Positions 45,790-55,396 of a stretch of 55,681 nucleotides of DNA are shown here, piece after piece. A program made the position numbers and the translations under genes. How positions within the stretch are numbered: position 1 is the stretch's first letter; each line of letters opens with the position of its first letter. Origin of the DNA: Acidobacteriota bacterium (GTDB lineage Bacteria > Acidobacteriota > Terriglobia > Terriglobales > Acidobacteriaceae); NCBI GenBank assembly GCA_021793405.1, contig JAJYSV010000022.1, positions 1 through 55,681 on the forward strand, read 5' to 3'. The notes beneath the pieces are model-generated. The model did not search any database, was not told where the DNA came from, and saw nothing but the letters and a program-made list of their open reading frames with translations.

Positions 45790-46671
45790 GTGACGGAGCA
45801 TCTTTTGGATTCAGTCAAGTCTAAATACGCCGCCGTGGCCGAAAGCACGCTGTCCAGCGATCACTCGGGCGTCAAGGCTGTTGCCGAGGCATTCGGCTAC
45901 ACCGCCGAGGAACTGAGATCCATTCCCGCCGCCGCCAACATGGGCCTTTCCTGCGGCAACCCAACAGCCACCGCGCACCTCAAACCCGGCGAAGTCGTTG
46001 TCGATCTTGGCTCCGGTGGCGGTCTCGATGTCTTTCTCGCCGCGAAAATGGTCGGTCCCCAGGGCCGCGCCATTGGCATCGATATGACCCCTGCGATGAT
46101 CGATCGCGCCCGCGCCAACGCTGCCGCCGGCGGCTACAACAACGTCGAGTTCTATCTCTCCACCATCGACAAAATTCCCCTGCCGGATGCATCCGTCGAT
46201 TGCGTCATCTCCAACTGCGTTCTCAATCTCGCGCCGGACAAGCCCGCCGTCTTCCGCGAAATCGCGCGCGTCCTCAAACCCGGCGGCCGTCTCGCCGTCA
46301 GCGACATCGCCTTGAAGCACGAGCTTCCTGAGGCGGTCTCTCGCAGTATCGCCGCTTACGTCGGCTGCATCGCCGGAGCGATTCGCATCGACGACTACCG
46401 CAACGGCCTGCTCGCCGCCGGCTTCCAGCACGTCGAAATTGTCGACAGCGGCGCCGACCTCAACGCCTACGCCAAAGTCGAGAACCAGTCCGGCTGCTGC
46501 TCGCCCACCATGGATGCCGCCGGTTCACTGCAAATCCTCGACGAGCCGTGTTGCACTCCCGCATCCGGCGCGCCCGCTTCCCTGCACGACGAACTCGCAG
46601 CACTTCTCTCGCAATACGACGTCAACGCCGCTGCGGCCAGCGTCAAGGTCTACGCCATCAAGCCAAGCTAG
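45790..46671 (+). CDS. arsM: Arsenite S-adenosylmethionine methyltransferase
   Basis: A 293-residue class I methyltransferase that methylates arsenite to volatile or less retained forms. The SAM motif is [20 protein letters not shown], then [20 protein letters not shown]. Arsenic-binding Cys candidates are in [25 protein letters not shown] and YVGCIAGAI. The tail adds further pairs (SGCCSP, EPCCTP). The start is GTG at 45790 with AAGGAGG seven bases upstream. It is divergent from arsR and probably derepressed by arsenic. The stop codon lies in a repeat element. Confidence 0.92.
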
Positions 46672-46700
46672 GGTGGGATAGAACGATGCCCGCATCACAG
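46668..46700 (+). repeat. Dispersed repeat overlapping the arsM stop
   Basis: This stretch matches 38977-39010 with about three differences by eye (GCTAGG-TGGGATAGAACGA, then GCCCGCATC-CAG). The TAG of arsM is part of it. It falls between arsM and arsC. Confidence 0.6.
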
Positions 46701-46746
46701 GAACAGGGATACTGCAGCTAACCCGGGATTGAAAGTGGGACGCGCC

Positions 46747-47235
46747 ATGCCGCACTACAATGTTCTGTTTCTCTGCACCGGCAACTCCGCCCGCTCCATC
46801 CTTGCGGAGGCCATCCTCAACCGCAAAGGAGCGCCCCACTTTACCGCCTACAGCGCCGGCAGCCATCCGTCAGGAACGGTGCGCCCGGAAGCACTGCGGC
46901 AATTGCAGGCAGTCGGCCTTCCAGTCGAAGGACTGCGCAGCAAATCCTGGGATGAGTTTGCCGCCCCCGGCGCGCCGCATTTCAACTTCGTCTTCACCGT
47001 CTGCGACAACGCCGCAAAAGAAGTGTGTCCCATCTGGCCCGGTCAACCCATCACCGCGCACTGGGGAGTGCCCGATCCCGCCGCCGTCCAAGGCACTCCG
47101 CACGAGATCGACCGCGCTTTCGCGCAGGCCTTCGCCACGCTGGAACGCCGCATCTCCCTGCTGCTCGCCCTTCCGCTCGCGTCCCTCGATTCGCTCGCCA
47201 TCAAGCAGCGCCTCGACTCCATCGGCCGGCAGTAA
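46747..47235 (+). CDS. arsC: Arsenate reductase, low-molecular-weight phosphatase type
   Basis: A 162-residue protein with the P-loop VLFLCTGNSARSILAEAIL (CX5R), SAGSHPSGTVRPEAL, and a pair of further Cys in NFVFTVCDNAAKEVCPIWPG that fit the thioredoxin-coupled redox relay. It reduces arsenate to arsenite for Acr3 export or ArsM methylation. ATG 46747 is chosen over the TTG at 46729. The alternative reading is a protein-tyrosine phosphatase, but the context and the extra Cys favour ArsC. Confidence 0.9.
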   Translation: MPHYNVLFLCTGNSARSILAEAILNRKGAPHFTAYSAGSHPSGTVRPEALRQLQAVGLPVEGLRSKSWDEFAAPGAPHFNFVFTVCDNAAKEVCPIWPGQPITAHWGVPDPAAVQGTPHEIDRAFAQAFATLERRISLLLALPLASLDSLAIKQRLDSIGRQ

Positions 47236-47346
47236 CGCGGCCGTCGCAGAATTGTGCAGGTTGCTCTTCGAACGGGCGTAGGATGGTTTGCGAGACATTA
47301 TCAACTTTTGGTGCGGCACGCGCGCCCAAACAGGTCCGAGGGAAAC

Positions 47347-48858
47347 TTGGCACGCTCAAAGACGACATCGAAACGTGTTCCACGGCCGTATATCAAAGAT
47401 CTGACCGAGTTTGATTATCCAGATTCAGAACTCGTATTCGGGTTTGTCTGCCCTACCGGAACAGATTTCACGCCAATCCTTAAAGAGTTCAAGCGCCTCC
47501 TTAAGCAATACCGCTATACATCAGACGAAATTCACCTCAGCGATTATCTTGGAAGACTTGGATACAAACTCAAGAACACACCTGAATGGTCTAGGATCGA
47601 GTCCCGCATGGATGCAGCACGACAAGCGTGCGAGGATGCAAAAAGAAAAGACTTGATGGCAATCGCCGCCGTCAATGCCGTTTCGAAGAAAAGAGATTTT
47701 GAAGCCCTAAACAAGCGGGTGAATACAAAACCCAGGGAACGCGTCGCGCATCTCTTGATTTCGCTAAAGAGACCCGAAGAGGTGTCGACGCTCAGGAAAA
47801 TATATGGCCCGGGCTTCTACTTGATCGGCATCTTCGCCACAGAGGAGGAACGCCTCGCATATTTAATAGGTCGCAACACGCCCAAAAATAAGGCTTCGGA
47901 ACTGATTGAGCGAGACCAGAACGAGGAACACCCATACGGGCAAAAAACCCGGAAAACCTTTCACCTATCAGACGTTTTTGTCCGCACTTCAAAATTCAAA
48001 GACGAACTGAGCAGGTTCCTTCAACTAATTTTTTGCAACCCGTATGTCACGCCAACTCAGGAAGAGCGCGGGATGTTTTTTGCATATGCCGCCAGTATGC
48101 GTTCTGCTCAACTCGGAAGGCAGGTCGGAGCCTGCCTAGTCTCAACAGGTGGAGAGGATCTGCTTTCAATTGGGTGCAATGATGTCCCGAAGGTCGGCGG
48201 CGGACTTTATTGGCCAGGGAAAAATGATCGCCGAGATCACAGGTTGAAATATGACACGAACGACGCTGAAATCGACAAGATAATAGAAAGCATGTTCGAA
48301 AGAATCGAGCAATCTTGGCCATCCATCCACGATCTAAGGCCGTTTTTCAAGGAAACATTGGATATTACTGAATTTGGCAGAGCTGTTCATGCCGAGATGG
48401 ATGCTTTATTGAGCTGCGCTAGGATCGGAGCGTCTCCCAGGGGCGCAACTCTCTACACCACGACATTCCCATGTCATAACTGCACCAGACACATCATTGC
48501 CGCAGGAATCAAAACTGTCTATTACATCGAACCATACGTGAAATCTCGTGCCAAGACTTTACACGCAGACGAAATATGTATCGAGGAATCTTCCACGACA
48601 GCAAGAATTTCTGCACGATCCACAGCACATGCCGATAAAGTAGATTTTAATAGTTTCGTCGGAATCGGACCACGACGTTTTGTTGATCTGTTTTCGATGT
48701 CCCTCGGCGACGGCTATGAGTTGGAGAGGAAATTAGACGGAAAAACAATATCGCGGGAAGCAAAAACGGCGATTCCACGGGTTTCCATGAGGCCCACGTC
48801 ATATCTGCAGCGTGAGATGATTGCTGCGCATCAAATTGATAGAACGAAAAAGGAGTGA
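47347..48858 (+). CDS. AvcD-like anti-phage dCTP/dCMP deaminase
   Basis: A protein of about 503 residues with two parts. The N-terminal half looks like a degenerate P-loop kinase domain (ELVFGFVCPTGTDFTPILKE). The C-terminal half is a cytidine-deaminase fold with the zinc site GRAVHAEMDALLSCARIG and FPCHNCTRHIIAAGIKTVYY. This architecture is that of anti-phage deaminases (AvcD/DCD type), which deplete dC nucleotides during infection. TTG 47347 has GAGGG upstream; the frame opens at GTG 47254. Base composition is clearly AT-richer than in the ars and lpxC genes, suggesting transfer. A small ORF follows after three bases. Confidence 0.85.
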   Translation: MARSKTTSKRVPRPYIKDLTEFDYPDSELVFGFVCPTGTDFTPILKEFKRLLKQYRYTSDEIHLSDYLGRLGYKLKNTPEWSRIESRMDAARQACEDAKRKDLMAIAAVNAVSKKRDFEALNKRVNTKPRERVAHLLISLKRPEEVSTLRKIYGPGFYLIGIFATEEERLAYLIGRNTPKNKASELIERDQNEEHPYGQKTRKTFHLSDVFVRTSKFKDELSRFLQLIFCNPYVTPTQEERGMFFAYAASMRSAQLGRQVGACLVSTGGEDLLSIGCNDVPKVGGGLYWPGKNDRRDHRLKYDTNDAEIDKIIESMFERIEQSWPSIHDLRPFFKETLDITEFGRAVHAEMDALLSCARIGASPRGATLYTTTFPCHNCTRHIIAAGIKTVYYIEPYVKSRAKTLHADEICIEESSTTARISARSTAHADKVDFNSFVGIGPRRFVDLFSMSLGDGYELERKLDGKTISREAKTAIPRVSMRPTSYLQREMIAAHQIDRTKKE

Positions 48859-48861
48859 ACA

Positions 48862-49056
48862 ATGTCTTTCAATCCCGATTTGACTGTCCCGGAAAACCGA
48901 GAGTATTGGGATCATGTAAAAAAGCTTTCTGAACAGGTGAAAACCTGGCCAGATTGGATGAAGGGAAGGGATGTAACGGAATGCAGCGAATCCAAAGCCG
49001 ATAGTAAGGAGCGCAAAACTTCAGTATTTTCTGCATCAAAAAAAGCACTGAAATAA
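48862..49056 (+). CDS. Small acidic/basic ORF coupled to the AvcD-like gene
   Basis: A 64-residue protein (MSFNPDLTVPENREYWDHVK, then KLSEQVKTWPDWMKGRDV). The start is strongly supported: AAGGAG overlaps the end of the deaminase gene and the ATG is four bases after its TGA. The helical YWDHVKKLSEQVKTWPDW core is compact; the last 25 residues are Ser/Lys-rich and probably disordered. No named family was recognised. Its coupling and shared AT-rich composition suggest it acts with the deaminase, for example as a regulator or cofactor; that is inference. Confidence 0.65.
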   Translation: MSFNPDLTVPENREYWDHVKKLSEQVKTWPDWMKGRDVTECSESKADSKERKTSVFSASKKALK

Positions 49057-49085: not shown

Positions 49086-50267
49086 TTACCCCGCAATCAT
49101 CGCGGCCAGCAACGCCGTGCGCTTCGCCAACTCGCTCAGCAGGATCGACTCATGCGCGGCGTGCGCGCCTTCGCCCACTGCGCCCATCCCATCCAGCGTT
49201 GGAATTCCCAGCGCGGCGGTAAAGTTTCCATCCGAGCCGCCGCCAGTGCTGGCTTCCTCCAACGCGAATCCCATCGCCCGCGCTATTTCTTGTGCCTGGC
49301 GAAATAGCTGAACCGTTGCTCGGCTGCGTTCCATCGGCGGACGATTCATGCCGCCAGTAACGGTCACGCTGCAACCTCGGTCCGTGGGTCGCAATCCGCG
49401 AAACAGCCGTTCCACCCGCGCCGCATCGCGCACCCGTGCAATGCGCACATCCACTTCCACCTGCGCTTCCGCCGCAATCACATTCACCCGCGTGCCGCCG
49501 CAAATCGTTCCCGGATTCACCGTCAGCCCAGTTTTTAAATCGGTAAACCGAGAAATCTTTTCAATCAGGCGAGCCAGTTCCAGCACCGCGGAATGTCCCG
49601 CCTCAAAATCAACGCCGCTATGCGCCGCCACTCCCTGCACGTGGATCGTATACTCGCCGACTCCTTTGCGCGCCGTTTTGTACGCGCCCTGCGGACCCTG
49701 TGCCGGCTCCAGCACGAAGACCTTCGAACATTCCAGCGCAATCTCTTGCGTCACCGCGCGTGAGACAGGACTGCCAACTTCTTCCTCGGAGTTCAACAGC
49801 ACCACCACTGGCGATGCCATCGCCTCGGCTTCGCGCAACATCGCCAGCGCATGCAGCGCCATCACCACGCCCGCCTTCATGTCGTACACGCCAGGCCCGA
49901 AGAGTTTTCCCTTCGCCTTTCGAAACGGCATTGTCGCCAGCGTTCCCATTGGCCAAACCGTATCGAGATGGCCCAGCAGCAGAATCGGCTTTTGCCTTGC
50001 GCCTGCAGCTTGCCGAGGTCTCGAACCCATCGCCCGGAGTCGCACTTCCAGCAGATCGCCAAATTGCTTCTGCCGGTACCAGCGGATTTTTCCGCCGAGT
50101 TCTTCAAACCAGCCCGCGACGAGATGACTGGCGCGGTCCACCGCACCCTTGTTTTCGCTCGGCGACTCTACGGAAACCAGCGCCTCCAGTTCCTGCACCA
50201 TTCTTTCCTGGCGCTCTTTCGCGTCTTTAAGCAGGCGTCTGGGTTCATATTCTGGGATAGTGCTCAT
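49086..50267 (-). CDS. M20-family metallopeptidase (carboxypeptidase G2-like)
   Basis: A 393-residue di-zinc peptidase. Metal and catalytic residues are visible in LLLGHLDTVWPMG (His and catalytic Asp), FGPGVYDMKAGVVMALHALA (bridging Asp), LLNSEEEVGSPVSR (catalytic Glu pair) and EGAHAAHESIL (last His). The dimerisation domain lies at about 185-300 (GVGEYTIHVQGVAAHSGVDF). It cleaves C-terminal residues, often Glu, from peptides or folate-type conjugates. No signal peptide was seen. It is divergent from lpxC. Confidence 0.87.
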   Translation of the reverse strand: MSTIPEYEPRRLLKDAKERQERMVQELEALVSVESPSENKGAVDRASHLVAGWFEELGGKIRWYRQKQFGDLLEVRLRAMGSRPRQAAGARQKPILLLGHLDTVWPMGTLATMPFRKAKGKLFGPGVYDMKAGVVMALHALAMLREAEAMASPVVVLLNSEEEVGSPVSRAVTQEIALECSKVFVLEPAQGPQGAYKTARKGVGEYTIHVQGVAAHSGVDFEAGHSAVLELARLIEKISRFTDLKTGLTVNPGTICGGTRVNVIAAEAQVEVDVRIARVRDAARVERLFRGLRPTDRGCSVTVTGGMNRPPMERSRATVQLFRQAQEIARAMGFALEEASTGGGSDGNFTAALGIPTLDGMGAVGEGAHAAHESILLSELAKRTALLAAMIAG

Positions 50268-50412
50268 GGCTCAACATCCTTTCAAGGGCGATTTTCGCAC
50301 CGCTCGAGGTGCAGCCACGACACAAGGTGTGGTAATTTTGCCACATCCGTCTCGGCGCGACTACTTATAGGATAAGCGTTTACAGGATTGGAGCTTCGCG
50401 ATCGCGCGCAAT

Positions 50413-51318
50413 TTGCAGTTCGAACAGACCATTGGTGACTCGGTCGAGTTTTCCGGAATCGGTTTGCACAGCGGTGCCCCGGTGCATCTGCGTTTGCTGC
50501 CCGCGCCGGGTGGCGCGGGAATTTTATTTCGCCGCACCGATCTCGACAATTTTGAGATTCCCGCCATCGGACGCAATGTAGCAAAGGTCAGCTATGCCAC
50601 CAGTTTGATGCGGCAAGGCGTGCTGATTTCCACCACGGAGCATCTGCTTTCCGCGCTGGTCGGCTACGGCGTCGACAACGTCATCGTCGAACTGGACAAC
50701 CTCGAACTGCCGATTCTCGATGGCAGCGCGCTTCCTTATATAGAAGCGTTCCAGTCGGTCGGCTTGCGCATGCAGCGCCGCCGTCGAGAATATCTTCGCA
50801 TCCGCAAAACTATCGAGGTGCATGATTCCAGCAAGTTCATCGGCGTGTATCCGGGCGAAGGCTACAGCGTTTCCTATGCGATCGATTTTCCATCGCCCAT
50901 CGGCAAAGAGTCATTTCAACTCGATCTGAATACCGGCGCGTACGCGTCCGAACTTGCTGCGGCCCGGACGTTCGGCTTCCGCGAAGATGAACAGATGTTG
51001 CGGGACATGGGCCTGATTCGCGGCGCATCCGAGGAAAATGCAATTGTCCTGACGCGCCAGGGCGTGCAGAATGGCCCTCTGCGCTTTCCCAATGAGTTTG
51101 TTCGCCATAAAATCCTCGACCTGATTGGAGATTTGGCACTGGCGGGCAAACGTATCCAGGGTCACGTTGTCGCGGAGCGCGCCGGCCACGCCATGCACAC
51201 GGCTTTGGTCGCGCGATTATTGCAAGATCGATCGGCGTGGGAGCTGGTCCATCTGCCGGTCATGGAACAGGAAATGCCGATCCCATCGCTGCTGCGTCCG
51301 GCGAGACTCTCCGCATAA
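50413..51318 (+). CDS. lpxC: UDP-3-O-acyl-N-acetylglucosamine deacetylase
   Basis: A 301-residue zinc amidase that makes the committed step of lipid A synthesis. Zinc ligands are in ISTTEHLLSALVGYGVDN and FVRHKILDLIGDLALAG, and the general acid/base His is in ERAGHAMHTALVARLL. The start region VEFSGIGLHSGAPVHLRLLP is typical. The start is TTG 50413 with no clear Shine-Dalgarno nearby, which could keep translation low for this tightly controlled enzyme. Length is normal for the family. Confidence 0.95.
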   Translation: MQFEQTIGDSVEFSGIGLHSGAPVHLRLLPAPGGAGILFRRTDLDNFEIPAIGRNVAKVSYATSLMRQGVLISTTEHLLSALVGYGVDNVIVELDNLELPILDGSALPYIEAFQSVGLRMQRRRREYLRIRKTIEVHDSSKFIGVYPGEGYSVSYAIDFPSPIGKESFQLDLNTGAYASELAAARTFGFREDEQMLRDMGLIRGASEENAIVLTRQGVQNGPLRFPNEFVRHKILDLIGDLALAGKRIQGHVVAERAGHAMHTALVARLLQDRSAWELVHLPVMEQEMPIPSLLRPARLSA

Positions 51319-53721: not shown

Positions 53722-54129
53722 TTATGAAATAGATGCAGGCTTCCGGAATGTGGAAGCTTCCGCTAACTGCTGCGCAATAGATTTTTGCGCGGCCTTGTCT
53801 GCCGGCCATCCAGAAATAATCGCGTGGTTCGGGTTATCGTGGACTGGATCAGGTGCGATTTCCAACGATTGACATCTTACGGTTGCCGCAGAAACATCTG
53901 CCCTTCCTAGCAATGGCTTTTGACGGCTGATCGCGATATTTCGTCCTATATCCCAAAGTTGTTGTCCGGAAAGGTCGTTATGACGCGTGACTGATAGATC
54001 GTGGTGCGGGTGCGGGATAAAGGCATCGGGCCTAATTGTTGAGTCTGAACTGCGAATCCATCCCTTGTAGAAAACAAATCGAGCTAATTGTTCGTTCGGC
54101 CCAACGGCTAATGCTTCTTCTTCACTCAT
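53722..54129 (-). CDS. Unknown protein, third gene of the TIGR04255 cassette
   Basis: A 135-residue soluble protein. RFVFYKGWIRSSDSTIRPDA and FIPHPHHDLSVTRHNDLSGQ form a conserved-looking core, followed by QLWDIGRNIAISR. No named domain was recognised. The HPHHDLSVTRH segment has several His and an Asp that could bind metal or be catalytic, but this is unproven. Its ATG overlaps the stop of the second gene (ATGA), showing translational coupling. Confidence 0.6.
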   Translation of the reverse strand: MSEEEALAVGPNEQLARFVFYKGWIRSSDSTIRPDAFIPHPHHDLSVTRHNDLSGQQLWDIGRNIAISRQKPLLGRADVSAATVRCQSLEIAPDPVHDNPNHAIISGWPADKAAQKSIAQQLAEASTFRKPASIS

Positions 54130-54617
54130 TCAGCTTCGACTCTGGCAATCGGCTCGATAATTGTGTCCGGAACTGTACCATAAAACGGCTCTGTCCCATA
54201 TTGCCTGCTCGGTCCGATGAGGGCTGCGTAATGAAGTTTTCCATCAGGGCTCACGCTCACGGATAGGGTTCGGCGCGGTGACCTGTACCACTCCAGGGTT
54301 ATGTGTCCGTCTGGTTCAGCCCCAATAGAAGGGGCCGGAGTACCAAGAGGAAGTGCACTTAAAAATCGATATGCAAGCCAGAAAACATCGCTTGATACTG
54401 GTTCAGCCCCGTAACCATCCCAGTCTGTGTGGCTGCACTCCTTATACACATAGTGAAGTGCATCAAACGAGCCCTTCGCAAGCTGGCCAAGTGCAAACGA
54501 CTCTTGGATCTTTTGGCGGCTTTTTTCGTATTCTTCGGCAACAAAGGTAGCAGTTGGACCTGTCCCACCGGACATTGAAATAGCATATTGCGGGGACGAG
54601 ATAGTATGGGTAGCCAT
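54126..54617 (-). CDS. Unknown protein, second gene of the TIGR04255 cassette
   Basis: A 163-residue soluble protein with a helical N-terminal half (ATFVAEEYEKSRQKIQESFA) and the motif TDWDGYGAEPVSSDVFWLAY, followed by a beta-rich end (GHITLEWYRSPRRTLSVSVS). I recall small unknown proteins with the DWDGYGA motif in sporadic loci but know no function. It starts two bases after the TIGR04255 stop and overlaps the next gene, so the three form one operon. Confidence 0.6.
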   Translation of the reverse strand: MATHTISSPQYAISMSGGTGPTATFVAEEYEKSRQKIQESFALGQLAKGSFDALHYVYKECSHTDWDGYGAEPVSSDVFWLAYRFLSALPLGTPAPSIGAEPDGHITLEWYRSPRRTLSVSVSPDGKLHYAALIGPSRQYGTEPFYGTVPDTIIEPIARVEAE

Positions 54618-54619
54618 GA

Positions 54620-55396
54620 TTATCGAAACATCTCCAAGGACCTTCGTTTGATGGAGCCGAAGAAAACCTTATTCTTTAGCCATCGCATTTTGGACAGATG
54701 CACTCCAAGCTTTATATCGTCCATTTCAAGGAATTGAGTAGTACCGACATCAATGTCCAATATAAGGCCTAAACCAGTTCCAGTCGTTAAATTTGGAGGC
54801 TGTATGGTTTTAATTATATTGATCGCATATGGGTTATTGGGTACGACAACGCTGTCCTGATGCATGAACCCGGAAATGGGGAAGTCCAGCTCTGGAGGGG
54901 TAGATGGAGAGACTTGGAGATATTCTTCAAAATTTACTTCGCCGAATGGAAGCTGGATTCGATTGACATAGCGAAGTCCTACCCGGTCAATTTGCAGGGG
55001 TTTTAGAAATTCGATGTAGCTGCTCCATAACCTCTTCGCCTCTCTCGAAAGCTTTTCCCAGGTCTCATATGGTTCCAGTCGACTCAAAACAAATCCGTCT
55101 CGATTGAATTGTGCAATATATTTTCGATCATCGGATTGAAATCGTAAGCCTTTCCACCCGAGATCTTTGGTAACTTGATTAGGTAGAGCATTGCTTGAAA
55201 ATTGGGCTCGGAACTGAAATTCACGCTGCGAATTCAGAAATTTGTAATCGGCGAATTCACTCTCCACGAAGTTCCGCAGAGCCTCTTCCCGTGGTCGATC
55301 CGCAGGCATTGCGCGGATGTCAATGACTGCCTCGACGATTGGCGCTTTTGGAAGGTTCTCAAACTGTTCTTCGAGATCGATGACAAATTCGTTCAT
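54620..55396 (-). CDS. TIGR04255-family protein, first gene of a three-gene cassette
   Basis: A 258-residue protein matching the sporadically distributed TIGR04255 family: ENLPKAPIVEAVIDIRAMPA near the start, SSYIEFLKPLQIDRVGLRYV then NRIQLP in the middle, and GLGLILDIDVGTTQFLEMDD near the end. The family has no assigned function. No membrane span or known catalytic motif is visible. The cassette is AT-richer than folK and CADD, which it follows on the opposite strand. A palindrome at 55439-55460 may control it. Confidence 0.75.
   Translation of the reverse strand: MNEFVIDLEEQFENLPKAPIVEAVIDIRAMPADRPREEALRNFVESEFADYKFLNSQREFQFRAQFSSNALPNQVTKDLGWKGLRFQSDDRKYIAQFNRDGFVLSRLEPYETWEKLSREAKRLWSSYIEFLKPLQIDRVGLRYVNRIQLPFGEVNFEEYLQVSPSTPPELDFPISGFMHQDSVVVPNNPYAINIIKTIQPPNLTTGTGLGLILDIDVGTTQFLEMDDIKLGVHLSKMRWLKNKVFFGSIKRRSLEMFR

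Follow-up and report, generated by a model that had tools for sequence, protein, structure and literature searches.

We found that an anti-phage deaminase gene of the AvcD/DCD type in a contig of a soil acidobacterium is followed directly by a small, unannotated protein gene, and that deaminase and small protein stand together in relatives from many bacterial groups. This pairing is well supported and almost certainly functional. The best explanation of the data is a two-gene phage-defence unit, in which the protein partner most likely acts as an inhibitor in the role of the RNA AvcI and phage copies of the partner are possible mimics; we favour this explanation, with considerable reservation. 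The DNA analysed, hereafter called the window, is the whole stretch of 55,681 nucleotides, and the features under study are listed in Table 1.

Table 1. Features of the deaminase locus in the window.
Feature	Position	Strand	Basis
Gap between arsC-like gene and deaminase, no excess RNA structure	47236..47346	+	fold z, repeats, Rfam
Deaminase, AvcD/DCD type	47347..48858	+	503 aa; NF041025 and PADLOC dCTPase
Zinc-site motifs HAE (residues 348-350) to PCHNC (375-379)	48388..48483	+	11-sequence alignment
AGGAG ribosome-binding site of small gene	48851..48855	+	sequence
Small partner, 64 aa: helix 10-27, WPDWM motif 29-33, disordered tail	48862..49056	+	profile, fold, conservation

The deaminase scored 417.4 bits against the NCBIfam model NF041025 ("anti-phage dCTP deaminase"), passing the curated cut-off of 400 with a match that spans model positions 1-433 of 437. 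The PADLOC dCTPase model matched residues 22-499 (3e-151), and the only Pfam domain above cut-offs was the deaminase domain (PF00383, PF14437). Both zinc motifs are intact, with H348, E350, P375, C376 and C379 invariant in an alignment of 11 sequences that includes the window's deaminase. In a structural model of the homologue L076, one part resembled the dCMP deaminase 2hvv (TM-score by target 0.73) and the other part the adenylate-kinase-related protein 3h0k (TM-score by target 0.77). A predicted two-domain build, with an N-terminal nucleotide-kinase-like part and a deaminase part, is thus supported by the PADLOC span and by the L076 model, which is not a model of the window's own protein. 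Deamination of dCTP/dCMP and protection against phages by the window's enzyme are inferred by analogy with the known family. The TTG from which the frame was called is not certain as the start, since the frame is also open further upstream, with a GTG at 47254, and conserved sequence begins only at about residue 25.

The GC content is 47.5% at 48001-49000, while the other 1-kb steps range from 53 to 65% except for 54001-55000 (48.2%). The deaminase is preceded by what we take, from reading the translations, to be an arsM-like and then an arsC-like gene, and a convergent gene, by the same reading presumably an M20 peptidase, ends 30 nt past the small ORF. As a side observation, the M20 peptidase-lpxC stretch (window 49086-51318) was matched in 59 of 60 genomes of the family while the arsM-arsC matches (window 45790-47235) sit elsewhere in the genomes compared, so that the ars genes and the deaminase may occupy a variable spot.

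The small ORF starts with an ATG at 48862, leaving a gap of 3 nt behind the deaminase TGA (48856-48858), and its AGGAG abuts that stop codon. Since the two genes adjoin on the same strand, the layout criterion for a type II toxin-antitoxin pair is met; the enzyme-first gene order is less usual for such pairs. The sequence-only reading had proposed an AvcD/DCD-like enzyme with kinase-like and deaminase domains and intact HAE and PCHNC motifs, lying in an AT-richer patch and tightly coupled to a 64-residue ORF with a Shine-Dalgarno sequence, and all of this was borne out by the model scores, the alignment, the L076 model, the base composition and the gene spacing described above.

To be recognised, the small protein required a profile. 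When the profile was built from 44 partners of loci not labelled Acidobacteria, so that the window's protein was not in the training set, that protein scored 29.4 bits (E 6e-8), against 8.9 bits for the best of 2403 decoy ORFs. AlphaFold predicted a single helix (residues 10-27) and a tail of low confidence. Single-sequence searches with the small protein were too weak, as is evident from the plasmid query, which returned no match although the plasmid locus L146 has a partner. The same kind of search in 297 genomes gave matches at E up to 1 in 97 of them, the bulk of which are noise; the strongest hit apart from the query itself (G145, E 0.001) and those in G073, G176 and G255 turned out to lie behind deaminases. 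Pfam, NCBIfam, PADLOC and the PDB gave no consistent match for the partners, and the PADLOC and NCBIfam models used for dCTP deaminase name the enzyme alone and do not match the partner. In PHROGs, 33 of 54 partners matched phrog_38465 and 16 of 54 phrog_29728, both of unknown function. The 64-residue ORF is nevertheless a genuine second gene and, by sequence comparison, a conserved, protein-coding, downstream partner of the deaminase.

The pairing was followed in two samples. Within the phylum, 13 of 396 genomes, counting that of the window, carry the deaminase. Seven of these deaminases (G000, G145, G176, G254, G073, G193 and G297) are followed by a clear WPxW small ORF and three (G163, its near-copy G094, and G255) by a degenerate one; two have a different ORF in this place (G152, G061) and one has none (G362). 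A scan of named species confirmed 572 relatives, of which the best-scoring 80 were analysed, so that the resulting fractions are not random-sample rates. Behind 50 of these best 80 we observed a helix followed by a W-P-x-W-K-type motif, in 49 cases in a separate frame (in L101 without a clear start) and in one case fused to the enzyme. One further locus, L052, is a weak case. In ten of the best 80 the small ORF lacks the motif and is not significant taken alone; another 19 are without a downstream partner, though two of these offer less than 130 nt of downstream sequence. The 50 partner loci are labelled Acidobacteriota, Pseudomonadota, Planctomycetota, Myxococcota, Bacillota, Fibrobacterota, Bacteroidota and Omnitrophota (about eight phyla); several are metagenome bins, which makes claims for any single phylum soft. 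The pattern W[PST].W[KMRQ], sought on the same strand from -60 to +300 nt of the deaminase stop, was present in 51 of 81 loci (the best 80 of 572 plus the window), whereas 0.45 were expected from the rest of the same DNA. The ten relaxed small ORFs (L036, L048, L054, L055, L056, L064, L069, L077, L084 and L110) were not counted as partners; against the held-out profile L056 reached E 0.041, L054 0.28 and L069 3.5, and the others were absent up to E 5.

In 15 whole genomes with the deaminase, 16 of 17 module matches adjoin a deaminase, one of them being a second, broken deaminase (Pyxidicoccus); the one exception, in Cohnella, is a weak match (8.5e-4) without a deaminase in its vicinity. Across 297 genomes of the phylum, matches with E <1e-14 occurred in nine genomes, all on the list of deaminase genomes, and the next genome's best match (6.8e-4) has no deaminase near. 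The 15 genomes were chosen for carrying the deaminase and their partners are in the profile, and the same bias holds for eight of the nine strong-match genomes of the phylum; only the lack of other matches is therefore informative. Among 158 Pseudomonadaceae-type genomes around the carrier G399, one other has the module, within a prophage-like protein of 396 residues, and no deaminase was found in it. Neither of the two outcomes that the sequence-only reading had named as refuting it was seen: related deaminases do not all lack the small ORF, and the strong bacterial matches that were found adjoin deaminases, bar the one prophage-like protein.

The core of the partner, up to the motif, is under purifying selection at the protein level, as judged from codon comparisons. 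Core dN/dS was 0.06-0.28 in 16 of 17 pairs with a deaminase dS <1.1, the remaining pair being not computable; examples are 0.06 (L060/L075), 0.08 (L089/L146), 0.09 (L087/L091) and 0.12 (L042/L043). For the whole ORF the range in pairs below the same limit was 0.03-0.61, and in some more distant pairs core values rose to 0.3-0.75. The pairs are not independent, the cores comprise 23-43 codons, and in many pairs a few codons overlap the deaminase gene, which adds some constraint.

The two genes also behave as a unit. The DNA shared by L062 (Pseudomonas fluorescens) and the human-gut scaffold L149 runs from the deaminase start to the partner stop (L062 2674-4582), and between the two Pseudomonas loci L062 and L065 similarity is lost right after the partner. 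Such a boundary at the partner's stop was seen in only two of 12 locus pairs compared; of the other ten, the L042/L051 block ends inside the partner, L039/L041 have no partner, and the rest remain similar past it. In Methylocucumis oryzae (L076) the deaminase ends in an in-frame fusion to the module, on the evidence of one short draft contig. Because small proteins aligned with the deaminases were misplaced in folding, this natural fusion was folded with deaminases only. The genome G193 has three small ORFs in tandem, two of them alike. Two of the three (L150, contig C373) lack WPxWK and resemble the ORF behind the L055/L007 deaminase ("FW..V..GA..Y.ALP"), and perhaps represent a putative second partner subfamily. 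In E. coli elements at tRNA-Sec, which we read from their neighbours as P4-like, the partner is annotated as a hypothetical protein and lies one base behind the deaminase. An intact partner ORF stands beside a broken deaminase in two loci, L008 (G094) and L181 (Pyxidicoccus G408:C7), where an assembly error is possible.

The deaminases themselves were compared in a quick tree of 92 rows, which has several long branches and does not include Vibrio AvcD sequences. The p58 deaminase of ETEC H10407, which we infer to be the ETEC system of the AvcID papers, forms one long branch (length 1.98, support 100) with four other plasmid/ICE/prophage-type deaminases (plasmid and E. coli). The partner is absent from this branch and spread through the rest of the tree, and the window's deaminase lies outside the branch. 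Partnerless groups also occur elsewhere, namely a nine-member clade with E. coli ETEC1747 (100), three acidobacterial rows (95) and L058/L003 (98), together with the single rows L013, L098, L102, L104 and L112. Independently of the partner question, 19 of 83 loci matched a simple pattern for an N-terminal extension of the deaminase of about 60-150 residues with the signature W(Y/F)..T...(FQG) (L060, L062, L065, L072-L075, L079, L080, L082, L088, L093, L094, L099, L100, L104, L105, L111 and L149); L153 was noticed apart from this count, and L049, which also fitted the pattern, was dropped as likely spurious. The extension co-occurs with a WPxWK partner in some branches and is found without a partner in the L153 clade; Pfam assigned it no domain in either L153 or L080.

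If the TTG start is right, the gap upstream of the deaminase measures 111 nt. Its fold gave a z of +0.84, with 157 of 200 shuffles folding at least as well; no repeats were found in it, and Rfam, in which the presence of AvcI was not verified, gave no match up to E 1. An upstream RNA in the window is accordingly without support from fold, repeats or Rfam, and, to the extent of these tests, the earlier statement that no obvious structured RNA lies there stands. An undetected RNA regulator remains possible in the absence of transcript data; we have not filed the system as type III toxin-antitoxin. In the Acinetobacter locus L087 only some 60 nt separate a terminator from the start of the deaminase, which leaves little room for an upstream RNA; the gene upstream in this locus was recognised by eye as presumably the end of dnaK. 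Upstream alignments of relatives were limited to six groups, some of them spoilt by wrong starts (L083, L146, L091). Separately, an annotated ORF of some 60 codons lies immediately upstream of plasmid/ICE deaminases of the p58-type branch (L147:2348-2530, L148:2688-2873, L154:2055-2243, L159:2618-2803); three of the four end in W, and they look poorly alike. What is encoded there may be the RNA AvcI and not a protein.

The sequence-only reading had not foreseen that phages carry the module without this deaminase beside it, alone or within other proteins. In Erwinia phage Kaldavass (38 residues) and Xanthomonas phage XbC2 (37 residues) the protein consists of little beyond the module. A 92-residue gene with the module near its end is common to Pectobacterium phages CB5 and phiTE, with a longer version in Peat1, and in Pantoea AAS21, Vibrio pVa-3 and P018-4, and phage 15G the module lies inside larger proteins. 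The bacterial profile scored all nine phage proteins at 21.8-44.2 bits. A deaminase search of the whole records of five of the nine phages gave weak zinc-region matches (19-20 bits) in two and none in three. The occurrence of the same small gene in the Phimunavirus phages Peat1 and CB5 and in the Certrevirus phage phiTE (L160, L161, L162) is a mosaic pattern, which would fit an anti-defence gene. A pattern search of IMG/VR (K-x-V-x-x-W-P-x-W-K, in DNA) returned 32 stretches, which were thus chosen by the motif itself; 13 of them scored at least 24 bits (11 distinct sequences) with a profile built without phage-database rows other than the gut scaffold L149, and 19 had a lower score or none. 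No deaminase match was found in any of the 32, within the stretch examined. One of them, L223, is 64% identical over 44 residues, some of the tail included, to the partner of a planctomycete deaminase.

As the partner is found with the enzyme in many bacterial groups and without it in phages, it probably controls the enzyme. The mechanism that we propose draws its enzymology from the known family: the deaminase would turn dCTP/dCMP into dUTP/dUMP and so starve phage replication. The second gene, translated right behind the first, would supply a protein with a helix, then W-P-x-W-K/M, then a disordered tail, which would most likely bind the deaminase and keep it inactive in uninfected cells, thereby standing in, within this part of the family, for AvcI, the upstream RNA of the characterised systems. 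A phage that shuts off host expression would cause the loss of the partner and free the enzyme, and phages carrying the module may provide it in trans, so preventing activation of the enzyme. Binding, inhibition and trigger are inferred here, as is the inhibitor role of the phage copies. We lean to an inhibitor because related enzymes are inhibited, because the partner persists beside broken enzymes (G094, G408) and because a phage would gain from an inhibitor. That the partner inhibits the deaminase seems to us reasonably probable; the evidence cannot separate an inhibitor from an activator or stabiliser, and there is no experiment. Mimicry of the antitoxin by the phage copies is a conjecture that we consider possible and no more. 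The broadest claim must likewise remain tentative: a large share of anti-phage dC-nucleotide deaminases would be controlled by protein antitoxins of a widespread and still unnamed family (helix plus W-P-x-W-K), making a protein-regulated counterpart to RNA-regulated AvcID, and phages would repeatedly have captured the module, alone or as a mobile domain, as an anti-defence inhibitor that turns these deaminases off. Weighing against the best explanation are the relatives without a partner and the variety of phage proteins, in which the module may have a different function.

Pairing, fusion and unit transfer would equally be produced by an activator, sensor or stabilising subunit for assembly or infection sensing, the phage copies then being decoys that titrate the enzyme or the trigger. 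The fusion is even somewhat easier to understand in this way, since a fused inhibitor would be harder to lose on infection than a fused activator. Such a role is a serious alternative that we nonetheless think rather unlikely, given that related enzymes are controlled by inhibition, according to the accessible part of the source (PMC10511110), that 19 of the best 80 relatives do without a partner, and that two loci keep the partner beside a broken enzyme. Less credible still is the reading that the module is a peptide with some general phage-related or host-interaction role, such as docking or marking for degradation, that operon and phages use independently and that has no action on the deaminase. 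It would account for the module in quite different phage proteins and in the prophage-like protein of a genome in which no deaminase was found, and no family of known function matches the module; the fusion to the deaminase and the near-exclusive position of module matches beside deaminases in the 15 whole genomes argue against it.

The two remaining alternatives deny the protein its part. By analogy with AvcI, an RNA encoded next to the enzyme gene, either the upstream gap or the conserved stretch downstream might be an RNA antitoxin with the ORF secondary; we consider this very improbable, since it is the amino-acid sequence that is conserved, even across phyla whose DNA is not, and since the upstream fold does not exceed that of shuffles. 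An ORF of 64 codons could arise by chance behind an ordinary deaminase, and the single-sequence search gives almost nothing significant, yet the excess of the motif over expectation, the held-out profile and the selection on the core leave practically nothing of this idea. The suggestion of a possible protein partner instead of, or alongside, RNA control has strong comparative support in its first part, the conserved partner, whereas control itself and the replacement of the RNA remain inferences.

A single-gene anti-phage dCTP deaminase was reportedly described by Tal et al. in 2022; the PADLOC and NCBIfam models for that system recognise the same enzyme and lack the partner. In the open-access literature we found no description of a downstream small protein of these deaminases, and no paper using "WPxWK" as a word that could be attributed to this partner; supplements as well as Hsueh et al. 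and Tal et al. 2022 were outside the scope of this search, so that absence is unproven. For AvcID of Vibrio and ETEC, the accessible parts of the sources give the inhibitor of AvcD as a small RNA, AvcI, encoded beside avcD or upstream of it; infection leads to the loss of AvcI, and this loss activates the system (PMC10511110, PMC9455884, PMC12409362). The window's locus shares with AvcID the enzyme family (NF041025, PADLOC dCTPase), the zinc motifs and a small putative regulator beside the enzyme; it differs in having no structured RNA seen upstream, in having a conserved protein gene downstream, and in the position of its enzyme outside the ETEC p58 branch. Rpn nucleases, so far as their source was available, are toxic anti-phage enzymes with a small protein inhibitor encoded at the 3' end (PMC10327210), but the enzyme is unrelated, and its inhibitor is one of the toxin's own domains, translated separately. 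DarTG, again on the portion of the source accessible to us, offers a demonstrated precedent for a phage-encoded antitoxin mimic (PMC11481870), although its proteins are unrelated and mimicry is merely suggested here.

If the partner inhibits the deaminase, one enzyme family would be under antitoxins of two unrelated kinds, one part of it controlled by RNA and another by protein, and the change between the two would be open to direct study. The motif is short and sharp enough for residue-by-residue mutation. The single-gene picture of this defence would also be corrected, and a set of phage genes would become candidate inhibitors.
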